From Pelomonas sp. Root405 (GTDB taxonomy: Bacteria > Pseudomonadota > Gammaproteobacteria > Burkholderiales > Burkholderiaceae_C), in the NCBI RefSeq assembly GCF_001425165.1, contig NZ_LMDU01000001.1:528075-592074 (forward strand): a stretch of DNA of 64,000 nt, in the 5' to 3' direction. Both the position numbers and the translations under genes were made by a program. Numbering within the stretch: the stretch's first letter is position 1; each line of letters opens with the position of its first letter. The notes beneath the pieces were generated by a model. That model had not been told where the DNA came from, did not search any database, and saw only the letters and a list, made by a program, of their open reading frames with translations. Below, in pieces: positions 31,618 to 37,836 of this stretch.

Positions 31618-31733
31618 GCCGAACGGGCGTCTTGGCGTCGAGCCCCGGTATAAACCTGGTGCCTCGACGTCTTCGTGGCGGGCATCCTGCACCCAAGCAG
31701 TGCCCGCGCGCACCACAAGCCGCCGCCCACCCG

Positions 31734-31747
31734 GGCGCGAAACTTGC
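31734..31747 (+). promoter_or_regulatory. sigma-54-type (-24/-12) promoter of the amidoligase operon
   Basis: GGCGCGAAACTTGC fits the sigma-54 consensus (T)GGCACG-N4-TTGC with one mismatch inside the core and exactly 10 bases between GG (31734-31735) and GC (31746-31747). Transcription would start near 31759, leaving a leader of about 17 bases with AGGAG five bases before the ATG at 31776. Enhancer-binding sites were not identified. Confidence 0.5.
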
Positions 31748-31775
31748 ATCGCCGGGGCTGGGAACAGGAGCGACG

Positions 31776-33272
31776 ATGCAGACGCCTTTCGACGAGATGA
31801 ACGCCCCGGTTGCGCCTAGCCAATCGCAAAGCCAATCACAGACCCAGGGCGCAGCGCCGCCGGTCAGCAACAACACCAGCATCCGCGCCCACTACGAAGC
31901 CTATGCCCGCTGGCTGGCGGCGCAGCCCGAGTCGCTGATGCGCGAACGACGCGAGCAGGCGGAGCTGATCTTCCGCCGCGTGGGCATCACGTTTGCCGTC
32001 TATGGCGACAAGGACACGGGCGAGGGCACCGAGCGGGTGATTCCCTTCGACCTGATCCCGCGCGTCATCCCGGCCGCCGAATGGACGTCCATGCAGGCGG
32101 GCCTGGCCCAGCGGGTGACAGCGCTGAACCGCTTCATCCACGACGTCTATCACGACCAGGAAATCCTCAAGGCCGGCATCGTGCCGGCCGACGAGATCCT
32201 CAACAACGCCCAGTTCCGCAAGGAGATGATGGGCGTGGACGTCGCCGGCGGCGTCTACAGCCACATCGCTGGCGTCGACATCGTGCGCGCCGGCAATGCG
32301 GGCGGCGGCGGCGACTACTTCGTGCTGGAAGACAACCTGCGCGTGCCCAGCGGCGTGAGCTACATGCTCGAGAACCGCAAGATGATGATGCGGCTCTTCC
32401 CCGAGCTGTTCGTGCAGCACCGCATTGCGCCGGTGGCCCATTACCCCGACCTGCTGCTGGACACCCTGCGCAGCGTGGCGCCGTCGGGCGTGTCCGACCC
32501 CACCGTCGTGGTGCTGACGCCGGGCATGTACAACTCGGCCTACTTCGAGCACGCCTTCCTGGCGCAGCAGATGGGAGTGGAGCTGGTCGAGGGCCAGGAC
32601 TTGTTCGTCGACGGCGGCTTTGTGTACATGCGCACCACGCGCGGCCCCAAGCGCGTCGACGTGATCTACCGACGCCTCGACGACGACTTCCTCGACCCGA
32701 CGGTCTTCCGCGCTGACTCACAGCTCGGCTGCGCCGGTCTGGTGGATGCCTACAAGGCCGGCAAGGTGACCTTGTCCAACGCCATCGGCACCGGCATTGC
32801 GGACGACAAGTCCATCTATCCCTACGTGCCGAAGATGATCGAGTTCTATCTCGGCGAGAAACCCATCCTGCAGAACGTGCCGACCCATGTGTGCCGCGAG
32901 AAGGAGGGCCTGGCCTACACGCTGGCCCACCTGGGCGAGCTGGTGGTCAAGGAGGTGCATGGCGCGGGCGGCTACGGCATGCTGGTCGGCCCGGCAGCCA
33001 CCCAGGCCGAGATCGAAGCCTTCCGCGCGCGCATCGTCGCCAACCCCGGCAACTACATCGCCCAGCCGACCTTGTCGCTGTCCACTTGCCCGACCTTCGT
33101 CGACAGCGGCATCGCGCCCCGTCACATTGATCTGCGACCCTTCGTGCTGTCGGGGTCCAGCGTGCGCATGGTGCCCGGTGGCTTGACGCGTGTTGCCTTG
33201 AAGGAGGGCTCGCTGGTCGTCAACAGCAGCCAGGGCGGCGGCACAAAAGACACCTGGGTTCTGGAAGACTGA
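31776..33272 (+). CDS. circularly permuted type-2 ATP-grasp protein
   Basis: A 498-residue protein of the circularly permuted ATP-grasp type (DUF404/DUF407 region), predicted to form amide bonds between a carboxylate and an amino group using ATP. A Ser/Gln-rich start is followed by IFRRVGITFAVYGD, PFDLIPRVIPAAEW, DYFVLEDNLRVPSGVSYMLENR, LTPGMYNSAYFEHAFLA and RVDVIYRRLDDDFLDP. The C-terminal VVKEVHGAGGYGMLVGP and SQGGGTKDTWVLE complete it. It heads an operon with alpha-E and transglutaminase/DUF2126 genes. The ATG was set by an AGGAG site; an in-frame upstream extension crosses the promoter. Substrates are unknown. Confidence 0.88.
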   Translation: MQTPFDEMNAPVAPSQSQSQSQTQGAAPPVSNNTSIRAHYEAYARWLAAQPESLMRERREQAELIFRRVGITFAVYGDKDTGEGTERVIPFDLIPRVIPAAEWTSMQAGLAQRVTALNRFIHDVYHDQEILKAGIVPADEILNNAQFRKEMMGVDVAGGVYSHIAGVDIVRAGNAGGGGDYFVLEDNLRVPSGVSYMLENRKMMMRLFPELFVQHRIAPVAHYPDLLLDTLRSVAPSGVSDPTVVVLTPGMYNSAYFEHAFLAQQMGVELVEGQDLFVDGGFVYMRTTRGPKRVDVIYRRLDDDFLDPTVFRADSQLGCAGLVDAYKAGKVTLSNAIGTGIADDKSIYPYVPKMIEFYLGEKPILQNVPTHVCREKEGLAYTLAHLGELVVKEVHGAGGYGMLVGPAATQAEIEAFRARIVANPGNYIAQPTLSLSTCPTFVDSGIAPRHIDLRPFVLSGSSVRMVPGGLTRVALKEGSLVVNSSQGGGTKDTWVLED

Positions 33273-33285
33273 GGGAGACAACAAG

Positions 33286-33444
33286 ATGCTTTCAAGAACC
33301 GCTGACCACCTGTTCTGGCTGAGCCGCTATATCGAAAGGGCCGGTAAAGCGCGCAGCGCTTGTGGCGAAGCCAAAACACCGCAGAGCGCGGCAGCGCGTG
33401 CGGTGTTCTCGGCCAACGAATGGGAGTCGAAGCATGCTGTCTAG
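33286..33444 (+). CDS. 52-codon upstream ORF repeating the alpha-E N-terminus
   Basis: It has a GGGAG ribosome site 8 bases before its ATG. Its first 19 residues, MLSRTADHLFWLSRYIERA, are identical to those of the alpha-E protein that starts at 33434, yet 12 of the 19 codons differ, all silently. After residue 19 the sequence becomes unrelated (GKARSACGEAKTPQSAAARA) because the DNA there forms hairpins. The reading frame differs from that of alpha-E and stops at 33442-33444, 11 bases inside the alpha-E gene, allowing translational coupling. It may be a leader peptide, a rearrangement scar or a non-functional duplicate. Confidence 0.65.
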   Translation: MLSRTADHLFWLSRYIERAGKARSACGEAKTPQSAAARAVFSANEWESKHAV

Positions 33445-33501
33445 GACTGCTGACCATCTTTTTTGGCTCAGCCGCTACATTGAGCGGGCCGAGAACACCG
33501 C
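33345..33501 (+). promoter_or_regulatory. mutually exclusive RNA hairpins over the alpha-E start (attenuator candidate)
   Basis: Three pairings are visible. AAGCGC (33347-33352) pairs with GCGCTT (33356-33361). AACACCGCA (33375-33383) pairs with TGCGGTGTT (33399-33407), with an inner GCGC/GCGC stem. GCGGTGTTCTCGGCC (33400-33414) pairs perfectly with GGCCGAGAACACCGC (33487-33501), inside alpha-E codons 18-23. The last two use the same bases and cannot coexist. The long pairing would loop out the alpha-E ribosome site (33422-33426) and ATG (33434). This geometry resembles translational attenuators but could be a fold-back duplication scar. Confidence 0.5.
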
Positions 33502-34378
33502 CCGGATGCTCGACATCGCCTACCAGACCTCGCTGCAGCCGCAGTCGGCCGAGGAGTCCGAGCAGTCCTGGCGCAGCCTCGTCTCCATCTCGGAGCTGAA
33601 CAGCCTCTACGGCACCAAGTATTCCGAGATCAACGGCCGCAGCGTCATGGCCTTCATGGTGGCGGACGAGGACAACCTCTCGTCCATCTACAACTGCCTT
33701 CGCGCCGCCCGCGAGAACGCGCGCGCGGTGCGCGGCGCGCTGACGACCGAAGTCTGGGAGACCATGAACCAGACCTGGCTGGAGTTCCGCCGGCTGCTGC
33801 GCGATGGCGCCCTGGCGCGTGACCCCTCGCAGCTGTTCGAATGGGTCAAGTACCGCAGCCATCTGTCGCGCGGCGTGACGGTGGGCACCATGCTGCAGGA
33901 CGAAGCCTTCCACTTCATCCGCATCGGCTCCTTCCTGGAGCGCGCCGACAACACCGCCCGGCTGATCGACGTCAAGTTCTACCGCCAGGACGGCAATGGC
34001 ACGGAGCGCGACACGGCGCGCGACTTCTACTACTGGTCGGCCGTGCTGCGCTCGGTGTCGGGCTTCGAGATCTACCGCAAGGTCTACAGCAATGTCATCC
34101 AGCCCGACAAAGTGGCCGAGCTGCTCATCCTGCGCCCCGACATGCCGCGTTCGCTGTCGCACTGCGTGACCCGACTGCTGGCCAACCTCAAGCGCGTGGC
34201 CAACCCGCAGTCGAGCGAGACGCTGCGGCGTGTCGGCCGGCTGGAGGCCGAACTGGCCTTCGGCCGCATCGACGAGATCCTGACCAAGGGGTTGCACCCC
34301 TTCCTCGACGACTTCCTCGCCGAGGTGGCGGATCTCGGCGCCGGCATCAGCCGCGACTTTCTCGTTCCCTCGAACTGA
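33434..34378 (+). CDS. alpha-E domain protein
   Basis: A 314-residue, mostly helical alpha-E (DUF403) protein, recognised by the start MLSRTADHLFWLSRYIERAENTARML and by FIRIGSFLERADNTARLIDVKFY, two related copies of a helix pattern with RAxNTAR. Such proteins always accompany circularly permuted ATP-grasp enzymes and are thought to assist the ligase, but no activity has been shown. It has a GGGAG site 7 bases before the ATG. The frame is open upstream to 33362, but the ATG at 33434 matches the family start. The duplicated 5' end just upstream is its main oddity. It is followed by the transglutaminase gene 14 bases later. Confidence 0.9.
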   Translation: MLSRTADHLFWLSRYIERAENTARMLDIAYQTSLQPQSAEESEQSWRSLVSISELNSLYGTKYSEINGRSVMAFMVADEDNLSSIYNCLRAARENARAVRGALTTEVWETMNQTWLEFRRLLRDGALARDPSQLFEWVKYRSHLSRGVTVGTMLQDEAFHFIRIGSFLERADNTARLIDVKFYRQDGNGTERDTARDFYYWSAVLRSVSGFEIYRKVYSNVIQPDKVAELLILRPDMPRSLSHCVTRLLANLKRVANPQSSETLRRVGRLEAELAFGRIDEILTKGLHPFLDDFLAEVADLGAGISRDFLVPSN

Positions 34379-34392
34379 CCCACGGGCCACGC

Positions 34393-37300
34393 ATGTCAAT
34401 CCACGTCGCCCTCAAACACGTCACACGCTACAAGTACGACCGGCCGGTCAGCCTCGGCCCACAGGTCGTGCGCCTGCGGCCGGCGCCGCATTGCCGCACC
34501 CCCGTGCTCAGCTACTCGCTCACCATCGAGCCGGCGGGGCACTTCATCAACTGGCAGCAGGACCCCTTCGCCAACTACCTGGCGCGGCTGGTCTTCCCCG
34601 AGAAGACGACCGAGTTCACCGTCACGGTGGACCTGGTGGCGGAGATGTCGGTCTACAACCCGTTCGACTTCTTCCTCGAAGAGCACGCCCAGACCTTCCC
34701 CTTCACCTACGACGAGGTGCAGCAGATCGAGCTCGCGCCCTATCTGCAGGTCGAACCGCTGACGCCCTTGCTGGCGGCCTACCTGAAGGACGTCCCGCTC
34801 GACCGGCGCTCGACGAATGATTTCCTCGTCGAGCTCAACCAGAAGGTGCAGCGCAGCGTCTCCTACCTGATCCGCATGGAACCGGGTGTGCAGACGCCGG
34901 AGGAGACGCTGACCAAGGGCTCGGGCTCCTGCCGCGACTCCGGCTGGCTGCTGGTGCAGTTGCTGCGCCACCTCGGCCTGGCGGCGCGCTTCGTGTCGGG
35001 CTATCTGATCCAGCTCACACCTGACGAAAAGGCGCTCGACGGCCCGAGCGGTACCGAGGTCGATTTCACCGACCTGCACGCCTGGTGCGAGGTCTATCTG
35101 CCGGGCGCCGGCTGGATCGGCCTGGACCCGACCTCGGGCCTGCTGGCGGGCGAGGGCCATATCCCGCTGGCCGCCACGCCCACGCCCGGCAGCGCAGCGC
35201 CCATCAGCGGGGGCGTGGACGAGAGCGAGGTGGAGTTCGGCCACGAGATGAGCGTCACGCGCATCTACGAGTCGCCCCGCGTGACCCGTCCCTACACCGA
35301 GACCCAGTGGGCCGAGGTGCTCTCGCTGGGCGAGCAGGTCGACCGCGAGCTGGTGGCTGGCGATGTGCGCCTGACCATGGGCGGCGAGCCTACTTTCGTT
35401 GCCATCGACGACCGCGACGCCCCCGAATGGAACATCGATGCGCTGGGCCCGACCAAGCGCGTTTACGCCCAGCAGCTGACGCACAAGCTGCGCGACGAAT
35501 ATGGCCGCGGCGGTTTCCTGCATTTCGGCCAGGGCAAGTGGTATCCGGGCGAGCAACTGCCGCGCTGGGCGCTGTCCATCTACTGGCGGGCCGACGGCCA
35601 GCCTTGCTGGCGCAACCCCGACTGGTTTGCCGACGAGCGCGAGGCCCACGCCTACACCAGCACGCATGCCGAGCACTTCATGAACGTGCTGACGCGCCGC
35701 CTGGGACTGCCGGCGACGCATGTGCAGCCCGGCTACGAGGACACCTTCTACTACCTGTGGCGCGAGCGCCGCCTGCCGGTCAATGTTGATCCCTTCGATG
35801 CGCGCCTGGACGACGAGATGGAGCGCACCCGCCTGCGCCGCGTCTTCGACCAGGGCCTGTCCCACGTCGTCGGCTATGTGCTGCCGATCGCCCGCGCGGG
35901 CGAGGAAGGCACGCCGCTCGGCGGCCCGCGCTGGCTGACCAGTCCCTGGTACTTCCGCGACGAGCGCCTCTACCTGCATCCCGGTGACTCGCCGATGGGC
36001 TGGCGCCTGCCGCTCGACGCGCTGCCCTGGGTCAGCAAGGGCGACTACCCCTATCTGATCGAGCAGGACCCGTTTGCGCCGCGCGGCATGCTGCCCGCCG
36101 CGGCCACCTTGCGTGCCCAGGTGCAGGGCGTGACGTCGGCCGGACCGACGCCGGGCCTGCGCAGCGGCGTCAGCTCGGCGCCCGCAGGTGCCGGCGCTGC
36201 TGGCGCTGCTGTCGATGCGGCGGCCAGCGCGGCGGCCATGCCGGCTCGCTTCCAAAGCGCCGCCGAACTCGCGCGCACAGCGCTCTGCGTCGAGGCCCGC
36301 GACCCCCGACGGGCCAACGGTCCCTCGGCCGAAACCAAAGGCAAGGCCAGCGGCGTCCTGTACGTCTTCATGCCGCCGCTCGAAAAGGTCGAGCACTACC
36401 TGGAGCTGCTCGCCGCCGTGGAAGGCGCCTGCGAGGACACCGGCTACCCCATCGTGCTGGAGGGCTATCCGCCGCCGCGCGACCCGCGCCTGAAGCTGCT
36501 GCAGGTCACGCCCGACCCCGGCGTCATCGAGGTCAACATCCACCCGGCGCACAACTGGCGCGAGCTGGTGGCACACACCGAGTTCCTCTACGAAGCCGCG
36601 CGCGTCACGCGGCTGTCGAGCGAGAAGTTCATGATCGACGGCCGCCACACCGGCACCGGCGGCGGCAACCATTTCGTGCTCGGCGGCGCCACGCCGGCGG
36701 ACTCGCCCTTCCTGCGCAGGCCTTCGTTGCTGGCCTCGTTGCTGGCCTACTGGCACAACCACCCCTCGCTGAGCTACCTGTTCAGCGGCCTCTTCATCGG
36801 TCCCACCAGCCAGGCGCCGCGAGTCGACGAAGCGCGCAACGACCAGCTGCGGGAACTGGAAATCGCGCTCGCCGAGATTCACAAGGCCGAGGCCAGCTAC
36901 GGCAGCGCGATGCCGCCCTGGGTCGTCGACCGCACGTTGCGCAACGTCCTCGTCGATGTGACCGGCAACACCCACCGCAGCGAGTTCTGCATTGACAAGC
37001 TTTACTCGCCTGACTCCGCGACCGGCCGCCTCGGACTGCTGGAGCTGCGCGCCTTCGAGATGCCGCCGCACGCGCGCATGAGCATCGTGCAACAGCTGTT
37101 GCTGCGGGCGCTGGTCGCGCGCTTCTGGAAGCAGCCCTACCGCGCGCCGCTGGTGCGCTGGGGCACCGAGCTGCATGACCGCTGGCTGCTGCCGCATTTC
37201 ATCCGCGACGACTTCAACGACGTCATGCAGGACATGCAGGACGCCGGCTATGCGCTGGACGCTGGCTGGTTCGCGCCGCATTTCGAGTTCCGCTTCCCGA

Positions 37301-37836
37301 AATACGGCGAGTTCGCCGCCCGCGGCGTGCACGTGACGCTGCGCAGCGCGCTGGAGCCCTGGCATGTGATGGGCGAGGAGGGCTCGGCCGGCGGCACCGT
37401 GCGCTATGTGGACGCGTCGATGGAGCGCATCGAGGTGCATGTCACGGGCCTCATCGACACCCGCCACCGTGTGACCGTCAACGGCGTGGCCCTGCCGCTG
37501 CAGCCCACCGGCCGTGTCGGCGAGTTCGTCGCCGGCGTGCGCTACCGCGCCTGGCTGCCGCCCTCGGCCCTGCACCCGACCATCGGCATCCACGCGCCGC
37601 TGACGGTCGACCTGGTGGACACCTGGCAGGCCAAGAGCCTGGGCGGCTGCCGCTACTCGGTCGCCCACCCGGGCGGGCGCAGCTACGAGACGCTGCCGGT
37701 CAATGCCTACGAGGCCGAAAGCCGGCGGCTGTCGCGCTTTGTGGCGATGGGGCACACGCCGGGCAAGGTCGAGGCGGCCGAGCCGCAGCGGAGCCTGGAG
37801 TTCCCGTTCACCTTGGACCTGCGCAAGCTGGGTTGA
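34393..37836 (+). CDS. transglutaminase-like and DUF2126 (circularly permuted GS-like ligase) fusion
   Basis: A 1147-residue two-part protein. The N-terminal third (about 1-300) is a transglutaminase-like peptidase with the Cys in GSGSCRDSGWLLVQLLRHLG, the His in DLHAWCEVYLPGAGWIGLDP and the Asp soon after. The rest is DUF2126, which comparative studies assign to a circularly permuted glutamine-synthetase-like amide ligase: motifs LTMGGEPTFVAIDDRDAPEW, HTGTGGGNHFVLGG and TGNTHRSEFCIDKLY. An Ala/Gly-rich linker lies near 590-640. It is the third gene of the operon. Joining and cutting of amide bonds in one chain suggests peptide tailoring. Substrate unknown. Confidence 0.9.
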   Translation: MSIHVALKHVTRYKYDRPVSLGPQVVRLRPAPHCRTPVLSYSLTIEPAGHFINWQQDPFANYLARLVFPEKTTEFTVTVDLVAEMSVYNPFDFFLEEHAQTFPFTYDEVQQIELAPYLQVEPLTPLLAAYLKDVPLDRRSTNDFLVELNQKVQRSVSYLIRMEPGVQTPEETLTKGSGSCRDSGWLLVQLLRHLGLAARFVSGYLIQLTPDEKALDGPSGTEVDFTDLHAWCEVYLPGAGWIGLDPTSGLLAGEGHIPLAATPTPGSAAPISGGVDESEVEFGHEMSVTRIYESPRVTRPYTETQWAEVLSLGEQVDRELVAGDVRLTMGGEPTFVAIDDRDAPEWNIDALGPTKRVYAQQLTHKLRDEYGRGGFLHFGQGKWYPGEQLPRWALSIYWRADGQPCWRNPDWFADEREAHAYTSTHAEHFMNVLTRRLGLPATHVQPGYEDTFYYLWRERRLPVNVDPFDARLDDEMERTRLRRVFDQGLSHVVGYVLPIARAGEEGTPLGGPRWLTSPWYFRDERLYLHPGDSPMGWRLPLDALPWVSKGDYPYLIEQDPFAPRGMLPAAATLRAQVQGVTSAGPTPGLRSGVSSAPAGAGAAGAAVDAAASAAAMPARFQSAAELARTALCVEARDPRRANGPSAETKGKASGVLYVFMPPLEKVEHYLELLAAVEGACEDTGYPIVLEGYPPPRDPRLKLLQVTPDPGVIEVNIHPAHNWRELVAHTEFLYEAARVTRLSSEKFMIDGRHTGTGGGNHFVLGGATPADSPFLRRPSLLASLLAYWHNHPSLSYLFSGLFIGPTSQAPRVDEARNDQLRELEIALAEIHKAEASYGSAMPPWVVDRTLRNVLVDVTGNTHRSEFCIDKLYSPDSATGRLGLLELRAFEMPPHARMSIVQQLLLRALVARFWKQPYRAPLVRWGTELHDRWLLPHFIRDDFNDVMQDMQDAGYALDAGWFAPHFEFRFPKYGEFAARGVHVTLRSALEPWHVMGEEGSAGGTVRYVDASMERIEVHVTGLIDTRHRVTVNGVALPLQPTGRVGEFVAGVRYRAWLPPSALHPTIGIHAPLTVDLVDTWQAKSLGGCRYSVAHPGGRSYETLPVNAYEAESRRLSRFVAMGHTPGKVEAAEPQRSLEFPFTLDLRKLG

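Follow-up and report, generated by a model that had tools for sequence, protein, structure and literature searches.

A silently recoded copy of a gene's own start forms a candidate coupled leader ahead of an alpha-E gene and recurs at unrelated genes

In the window, a stretch of 64,000 nucleotides from Pelomonas sp. Root405, the alpha-E gene is preceded by a 148-bp unit that combines a duplicate of this gene's translation start with a hairpin spacer and a second ribosome site, and units of this plan stand ahead of alpha-E in 47 loci. We assign a probability of roughly 55% to the reading that the unit is a leader coupling termination to restart, which would have arisen by start-copying insertion, would make expression dependent on leader translation that opens a long-range helix between its arm X and a segment of the gene, Y2, and would be amplified in tandem and lost precisely.

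The leader open reading frame lies directly ahead of the alpha-E gene (Table 1), and the 19-residue peptide MLSRTADHLFWLSRYIERA is encoded identically by copy 1, at the leader start, and copy 2, at the start of alpha-E. The earlier note had described a silently recoded duplicate, and this is exact: 12 of the 19 codons are unlike through 12 base changes, every one silent, and no residue is replaced. Its account of a leader that ends 11 bases within the alpha-E frame, with Shine-Dalgarno-like sites before both ATGs, is equally accurate. An assembly join at the locus, which it had raised as an artefact, is unlikely, since the 148-bp unit occurs at the same place in four other species of the genus and the same plan is found again in other genera.

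Table 1. Features at the duplicated alpha-E start and in the neighbouring operon genes (positions in the window).
Feature	Position	Strand	Basis
Upstream operon gene, circularly permuted ATP-grasp; putative TTG start taken from the ORF tool	31632..33272	+	Pfam CP_ATPgrasp_2 546 bits, CP_ATPgrasp_1 501 bits
Shine-Dalgarno-like AGGGAG ahead of leader start	33272..33277	+	sequence
Leader ORF, 52 codons, TAG 33442-33444 within alpha-E start	33286..33444	+	sequence, stop analysis
Copy 1 of gene start (S), 19 codons	33286..33342	+	sequence comparison
Spacer hairpin H1a	33347..33361	+	fold; covarying stem positions, alignment of 38 spacers
Spacer hairpin H1b	33363..33373	+	fold
Hairpin H2	33375..33407	+	fold; covarying stem positions, alignment of 38 spacers
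H2 5' arm Y1', like the gene's own continuation	33375-33383	+	fold
H2 3' arm, overlapping X	33399-33407	+	fold
Arm X, complement of alpha-E codons 18-23	33397..33414	+	complementarity, covariation
Second Shine-Dalgarno-like GGGAG	33422..33426	+	sequence
Copy 2 of gene start (S'), presumed authentic start of alpha-E	33434..33490	+	sequence
Arm Y2, partner of X, across the junction of duplicated start and rest of gene	33487..33504	+	complementarity, covariation
Alpha-E gene, 314 aa	33434..34378	+	Pfam PF04168, 331 bits
Downstream operon gene, transglutaminase fused to DUF2126 amidoligase	34393..37836	+	Pfam

Sequence and energy support the two mutually exclusive folds noticed earlier at the locus, and silent covariation preserves the long-range one. 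Positions 33400-33414 form a perfect 15-nt complement to 33487-33501 (18 nt at 94%), while the two arms of H2 are perfectly complementary to each other and, by overlapping X, exclude the X:Y2 pairing. The local fold of 33339-33414 is a four-way junction (-44.3 kcal/mol for 33339-33432, z -2.5), matched by 4 of 200 shuffles, and the X:Y2 helix, folded as 33396-33505, reaches -53.8 kcal/mol (z -4.7) with none of 200 shuffles as good. It is also present when the entire 33265-33520 is folded (z -2.0; 7 of 200 shuffles as good). Of the translational attenuator proposed earlier, the exclusive folds stand, but concealment of the ribosome site as its means is weak: when the window locus adopts the X:Y2 fold, 33422-33424 of the site GGGAG are unpaired, and the site sits in the loop outside the helix, which counts against regulation of the start by the helix.

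The placement of the leader stop supports the view that the leader is translated, as its appearance had suggested. In all 56 units of the 47 alpha-E loci, which were gathered by likeness of the start copies and not by their stops, the leader stop falls between -21 and +8 of the next ATG at any unit length modulo 3, whereas the other two frames hold a stop within the wider window of -45 to +15 in 11 of 112 cases; these counts come from related loci and are not independent, and the rule holds in all three frames and at other genes. Unit length modulo 3 sets the required stop position, and the silent codons of the restart follow suit. With the stop at or after the ATG, the restart reads TCT-AG in 18 of 18 cases in frame 1 and takes a TGAG or TAAG form in 25 of 25 in frame 2, and with the stop before the ATG neither occurs (13 of 13 restarts). 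For comparison, TCT-AG and the TGAG/TAAG forms are found in 7 and 10 of 95 plain genes and in 2 and 18 of 47 leader starts, respectively. A Shine-Dalgarno-like 4-mer precedes 57 of 62 first copies and 70 of 74 restarts. The stop rule could be a survivorship filter that merely lets the gene tolerate an insertion.

Arm X follows the gene in a comparable way. The best 15-mer of a spacer matches its own downstream gene at a mean of 12.4 of 15 positions (46 loci), against 11.3 for the genes of other genomes and 8.2 for shuffled spacers, and none of 2000 permutations reaches the own-gene value; one locus with a 133-bp unit in which the first codons alone are duplicated (L135) was left out of this matching and of the substitution counts given below. 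At codons 19 and 20 the silent third base matches X in 46/46 and 44/46 loci, having changed 6 and 13 times on the tree. For codon 20, six independent pairs changed in the same direction on average in 5.8 of 6 and never in the opposite one; the three independent pairs for codon 19 are too few for a directional test. Across the alignment, 86.1% of X:Y2 cells are paired compared with 80.7% in shuffles (0/500), a proportion that drops to 40.6-49.4% when the partner is slid by 1-3 columns, and double changes occupy 51 cells compared with 22.9 (0/500). Counted by pair, the excess of double changes is modest (5 vs 3.3; 8/500) and pair types are no richer than in shuffles (13 vs 12.8; 299/500). Four of the 16 X:Y2 pairs are absent in 10 to 29 of 45 rows: two inner ones from 13 and 10 rows, and a further two from 29. 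The upstream start copy matches X less well than the downstream gene does. Some loci have GA where TC would pair, giving a tandem G-A mismatch, a combination that can be stable in RNA, and in five of them (L181, L182, L183, L210, L211) the TGA formed at this site is the leader stop. As sequence patterns, the stop and the arm show a unit kept in step with its gene.

The earlier note also reasoned that a duplicate differing by silent changes alone points to selection on the peptide or to a first copy from a diverged relative, and the substitution counts agree with selection. For adjacent alpha-E copies, 55 comparisons give N 39.8 and S 214.2, an N/S of 0.19 where about 1.8 would be expected were the upstream copy free to change, and for the copies at biotin-carboxylase genes 17 comparisons give N 5.5 and S 52.5 (L260, L263 and the duplicate locus L375 left out). 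Between genomes, pN/pS is low for first copies (0.04 to 0.14) and last copies (0.00 to 0.14), whereas the spacer, compared in two sets of five units, gives 0.94 and 1.26 when read in the leader frame and from 0.74 to 1.57 when read in the others; the duplicated residues are thus constrained and the remainder of the leader is not. Silent divergence per site is similar in first and last copies, at 0.29 and 0.38 for biotin carboxylase and 0.50 and 0.37 for alpha-E of the genus, and the spacers have diverged by 0.13 and 0.17 per site. The units are therefore not recent.

Units at alpha-E genes measure 133-206 bp each, and one to three stand in front of a gene. Among 20 genomes of the genus, the 148-bp unit occurs in five (G000, G001, G002, G008, G018) and a plain alpha-E start in 11; three more have one start and an unrelated insert between the ATP-grasp and alpha-E genes, and one (G012) is without a recognised locus. 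The plain start of close relatives agrees with the earlier proposal of a small inserted element. Units are present in 14 of 80 alpha-E loci from named genomes, same-genus species included. An alpha-E start is recognisable in 321 of 399 family genomes, and 30 of the 399 score at least 44 bits with a spacer covariance model; each of these hits falls at an alpha-E start already known to have tandem units, and many of those units had served to build the model. On a quickly built tree of 152 alpha-E rows, in which some loci appear twice, presence of the unit requires at least 24 state changes, and unit type tracks the larger clades. Given these 24 changes and the majority of relatives without it, the unit cannot be essential. 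All comparative counts are drawn from related genomes, and kinship inflates them.

Plain starts are closer to the first copy in codons 1-7 (22 vs 9) and to the last copy in codons 8-19 (19 vs 9; 47 loci each). Such chimeric starts are as expected if deletion between the copies had produced them; gain through a foreign donor could leave a similar trace. The clearest pair is a unit-bearing locus (L006) and a plain one (L010) whose downstream alpha-E DNA is 98% alike. The sample has one genome per species, so gain or loss at the level of strains was not observed.

Several loci stood out individually. One genome (G278) has two alpha-E loci (L203, L204) with tandem units of differing length, 140 and 149 bp, and another (G401) has an alpha-E gene (L262) with a spacer and a TCT-AG restart and no recognisable upstream start copy. 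In four species of the genus (L009, L014, L015, L018) a different insert separates the ATP-grasp stop from the alpha-E start, and by eye those in L009, L014 and L015 are hairpin-rich. In G389 an identical alpha-E start sequence opens two contigs (L217, L218), lying 25 bases from the end of each; assemblies may break at such starts because of arrays or paralogues.

The same plan, with a gene-specific start and arm, was found at biotin-carboxylase genes in 16 loci, first reached through weak matches of the spacer model. The order is start copy, hairpins, arm, Shine-Dalgarno site and restart, with the arm complementary to the gene just beyond the duplicated start; in one genome (G104) three 136-bp units are in tandem, and X is a perfect 15-mer in two of them. 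A pattern search of the genus found tandem starts 115-130 bp apart in 11 of 20 genomes. Across all 16 loci the units place their leader stop between -24 and +5. In 11 of these the restart carries TTT, which creates the stop, while codon 2 is TTC in 12 of 16 upstream copies and in 5/5 plain genes inspected. A glycine wobble base agrees with X in 16/16 loci, all four bases being represented, including one locus (L398) whose best 16-mer match falls outside X. Four of the 16 arms match at 9-12 of 16 positions, with L390, L394 and L396 at 9-11.

The genome of the window itself has two biotin-carboxylase sites, C1:903049-903196 (L318, L398) and C14:791794-791949 (L388), with units of 116 and 124 bp. 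A molybdopterin-oxidoreductase gene at C1:462721 (L290, minus strand) repeats the plan as a single case, with a 146-bp unit, a leader stop at -5, a perfect 10-nt arm and different hairpins; this case and one of the biotin-carboxylase cases are on the window's own contig. A scan of the genome for coupled starts (1.88 Mb, window excluded) returned 7 coupled hits, tRNA genes and repeated domains among them, against 4 in a reversed control, and the additional cases therefore rest on their anatomy and not on the noisy count; the scan for coupled starts missed 1 of 20 loci with known units (L260). With other start copies serving two further gene types, the earlier suggestion that the alpha-E protein directs its leader is not supported.

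Searches for a known or dispersed family gave little. Rfam at E up to 5 has no match within the unit, group I and II introns and other known RNA families included. Model R1 finds a single site in the own genome at E 0.001 and not the many dispersed copies of a REP- or MITE-like family, and blastn returned the locus itself and one gene-internal repeat, again without dispersed copies. A dispersed mobile family of alpha-E units was not found in the own genome or the 399 family genomes, the spacer model being one that misses some known units (G241 and G267 without a hit, G158 with a hit away from its units). Fifteen family genomes gave hits below 44 bits, of which seven were inspected: biotin-carboxylase units in G159, G104 and G243, alpha-E in G401 and G217, and hits judged to be chance in G138 and G236. 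Outside the family, the order-level hits of R1 were discarded, L225 and L226 lying within listed ORFs, L228 being terminator-like, and L227, L229 and L231 being judged chance by eye. Model R2, run on 40 relatives, recovered five alpha-E units and seven weaker hits (of these, G425 alone was inspected) and did not recover known biotin-carboxylase units. H1 and H2 resemble intrinsic terminators in some units, but the U tract, which follows the gene's GAG or GAA codon, is not kept, and a terminator role was set aside.

As the most economical mechanism, we infer a coupled termination and restart in which leader ribosomes open the helix. The 148-bp unit would be a leader acting in cis, formed when the translation start of the gene was copied. 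Ribosomes would initiate at copy 1 and cross the hairpin spacer in a frame that serves no purpose beyond remaining open; having terminated a few bases at most from the second ATG, they would restart at it and produce alpha-E in full length. Arm X would have two alternative partners: locally, the Y1' strand and the end of copy 1, which together give the four-way junction, or alpha-E codons 18-23, in which case the second ribosome site and ATG would be enclosed; a leader ribosome crossing X would undo this helix, so that alpha-E expression would depend on leader translation. As to origin, an insertion or a template-switching event would have duplicated the start of the target and added the insertion site in inverted form, and an inverted site copy between direct start copies is what two template switches or a target-copying insertion would leave. 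Once formed, the unit would pass to descendants and multiply in tandem, and a deletion between the two copies would remove it precisely. More tentatively, and with the odds against it, the units may represent a class of start-copying insertion elements, whose short hairpin inserts would enter genes in the 5' coding region and copy the target start and the inverted empty site, using X as an internal guide to the site, and whose built-in terminate-and-restart arrangement would keep even an essential gene expressed.

The constraint on copy 1 fits direct use of the peptide and indirect purging alike. In the indirect case, frequent deletion would rebuild a plain gene whose first codons come from copy 1 and so remove damaged copies, and the leader peptide would be idle; the neutral remainder of the leader, the chimeric look of plain genes and the near-identity of L010 and L006 all agree with this. 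A deletion rate well above the inverse of population size would be required, however, and the stop rule and X:Y2 would be left unexplained, so we regard it as possible but less likely than not. Somewhat less probable still is a small selfish or mobile hairpin insert of no benefit, which enters the 5' coding region and copies the start and an inverted site, the survivors being those that leave a stop and a restart, and both the covariation and the identity of the start copies reflecting how the insert was made. Recurrence of the plan in three gene families that are unrelated, each with its own S and X, patchy occurrence, tandem amplification and hairpin cores such as CGCGCAGCG, common to the alpha-E and biotin-carboxylase inserts, are what such an insert would produce. 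Against this, alpha-E-type copies are not dispersed in the 399 family genomes, every hit of 44 bits or more being at an alpha-E start; X still matches Y2 and copy 1 keeps its amino acids in units that are not fresh; and mismatches persisting beside covarying bases speak against repeated re-templating.

That the unit is a non-functional scar of tandem duplication, kept by chance, is very improbable. The earlier note would have taken plain-start relatives, together with a leader free of ribosomes, as a sign of a scar, and such relatives are indeed common, their starts combining a first-copy 5' part with a last-copy 3' part; frame-specific stops, silent covariation, the constrained residues of copy 1 and the recurrence of these features at other genes nevertheless argue against it. 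We give least credence to a programmed ribosome bypass, or an excision from the RNA, that would span the stretch between the ends of the two copies and have the protein made from copy 1. Constrained amino acids in copy 1, a neutral spacer and a hairpin directly after copy 1 would suit it, but take-off and landing codons must match in a bypass, and by eye codon 19 is unlike between the copies in several loci (e.g., L004, L006, L035, L109, L183, L181, L176); the recurrent stop and second Shine-Dalgarno site would be superfluous, and the unit has no Rfam match.

If the coupled-leader reading is true, a gene interrupted near its start by a structured insert could still be expressed, since the insert supplies a second start as well as a stop whose position is set by silent codon choice, and this would be a new way for leaders with coupled translation to arise. 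It would also account for duplicated starts, which gene finders may misannotate, and would offer a natural module, present at unrelated genes, for testing the interplay of restart and RNA helix.

Among known systems, erm-type translational attenuators have a short leader ORF, two exclusive folds, a buried Shine-Dalgarno site and an inducer-dependent arrest peptide. The unit shares the short leader ORF and the exclusive folds; its Shine-Dalgarno site is not clearly hidden, no arrest peptide is common to the units, and the leader is the N terminus of the regulated gene itself. The e14 element at icd is reportedly an integrative element that rebuilds a gene end with silent changes, and the unit likewise has a silently differing duplicate of one end of its target gene; at 115-206 bp, however, it is too short for an integrase gene, and it has a second start and a leader stop built in. 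The open-licence literature, as far as its retrieved parts extend, has no description of such a unit. REP, BIME and related palindromic repeats (PMC3733652) are similar in being short GC-rich palindromes, whereas the units are not dispersed in high copy, are fixed at gene starts and have gene-specific arms. Coupled leader ORFs with termination-reinitiation (review PMC5972666) share a stop at or overlapping the next start, a Shine-Dalgarno site before the restart and a leader whose translation would open a structure; in contrast to these, the unit's leader copies its target's own start and recurs at unrelated genes with a gene-specific arm. Coupled reinitiation as a class of mechanism is already known; since no known kind considered has the defining features of the unit, the unit itself would be of a new kind.
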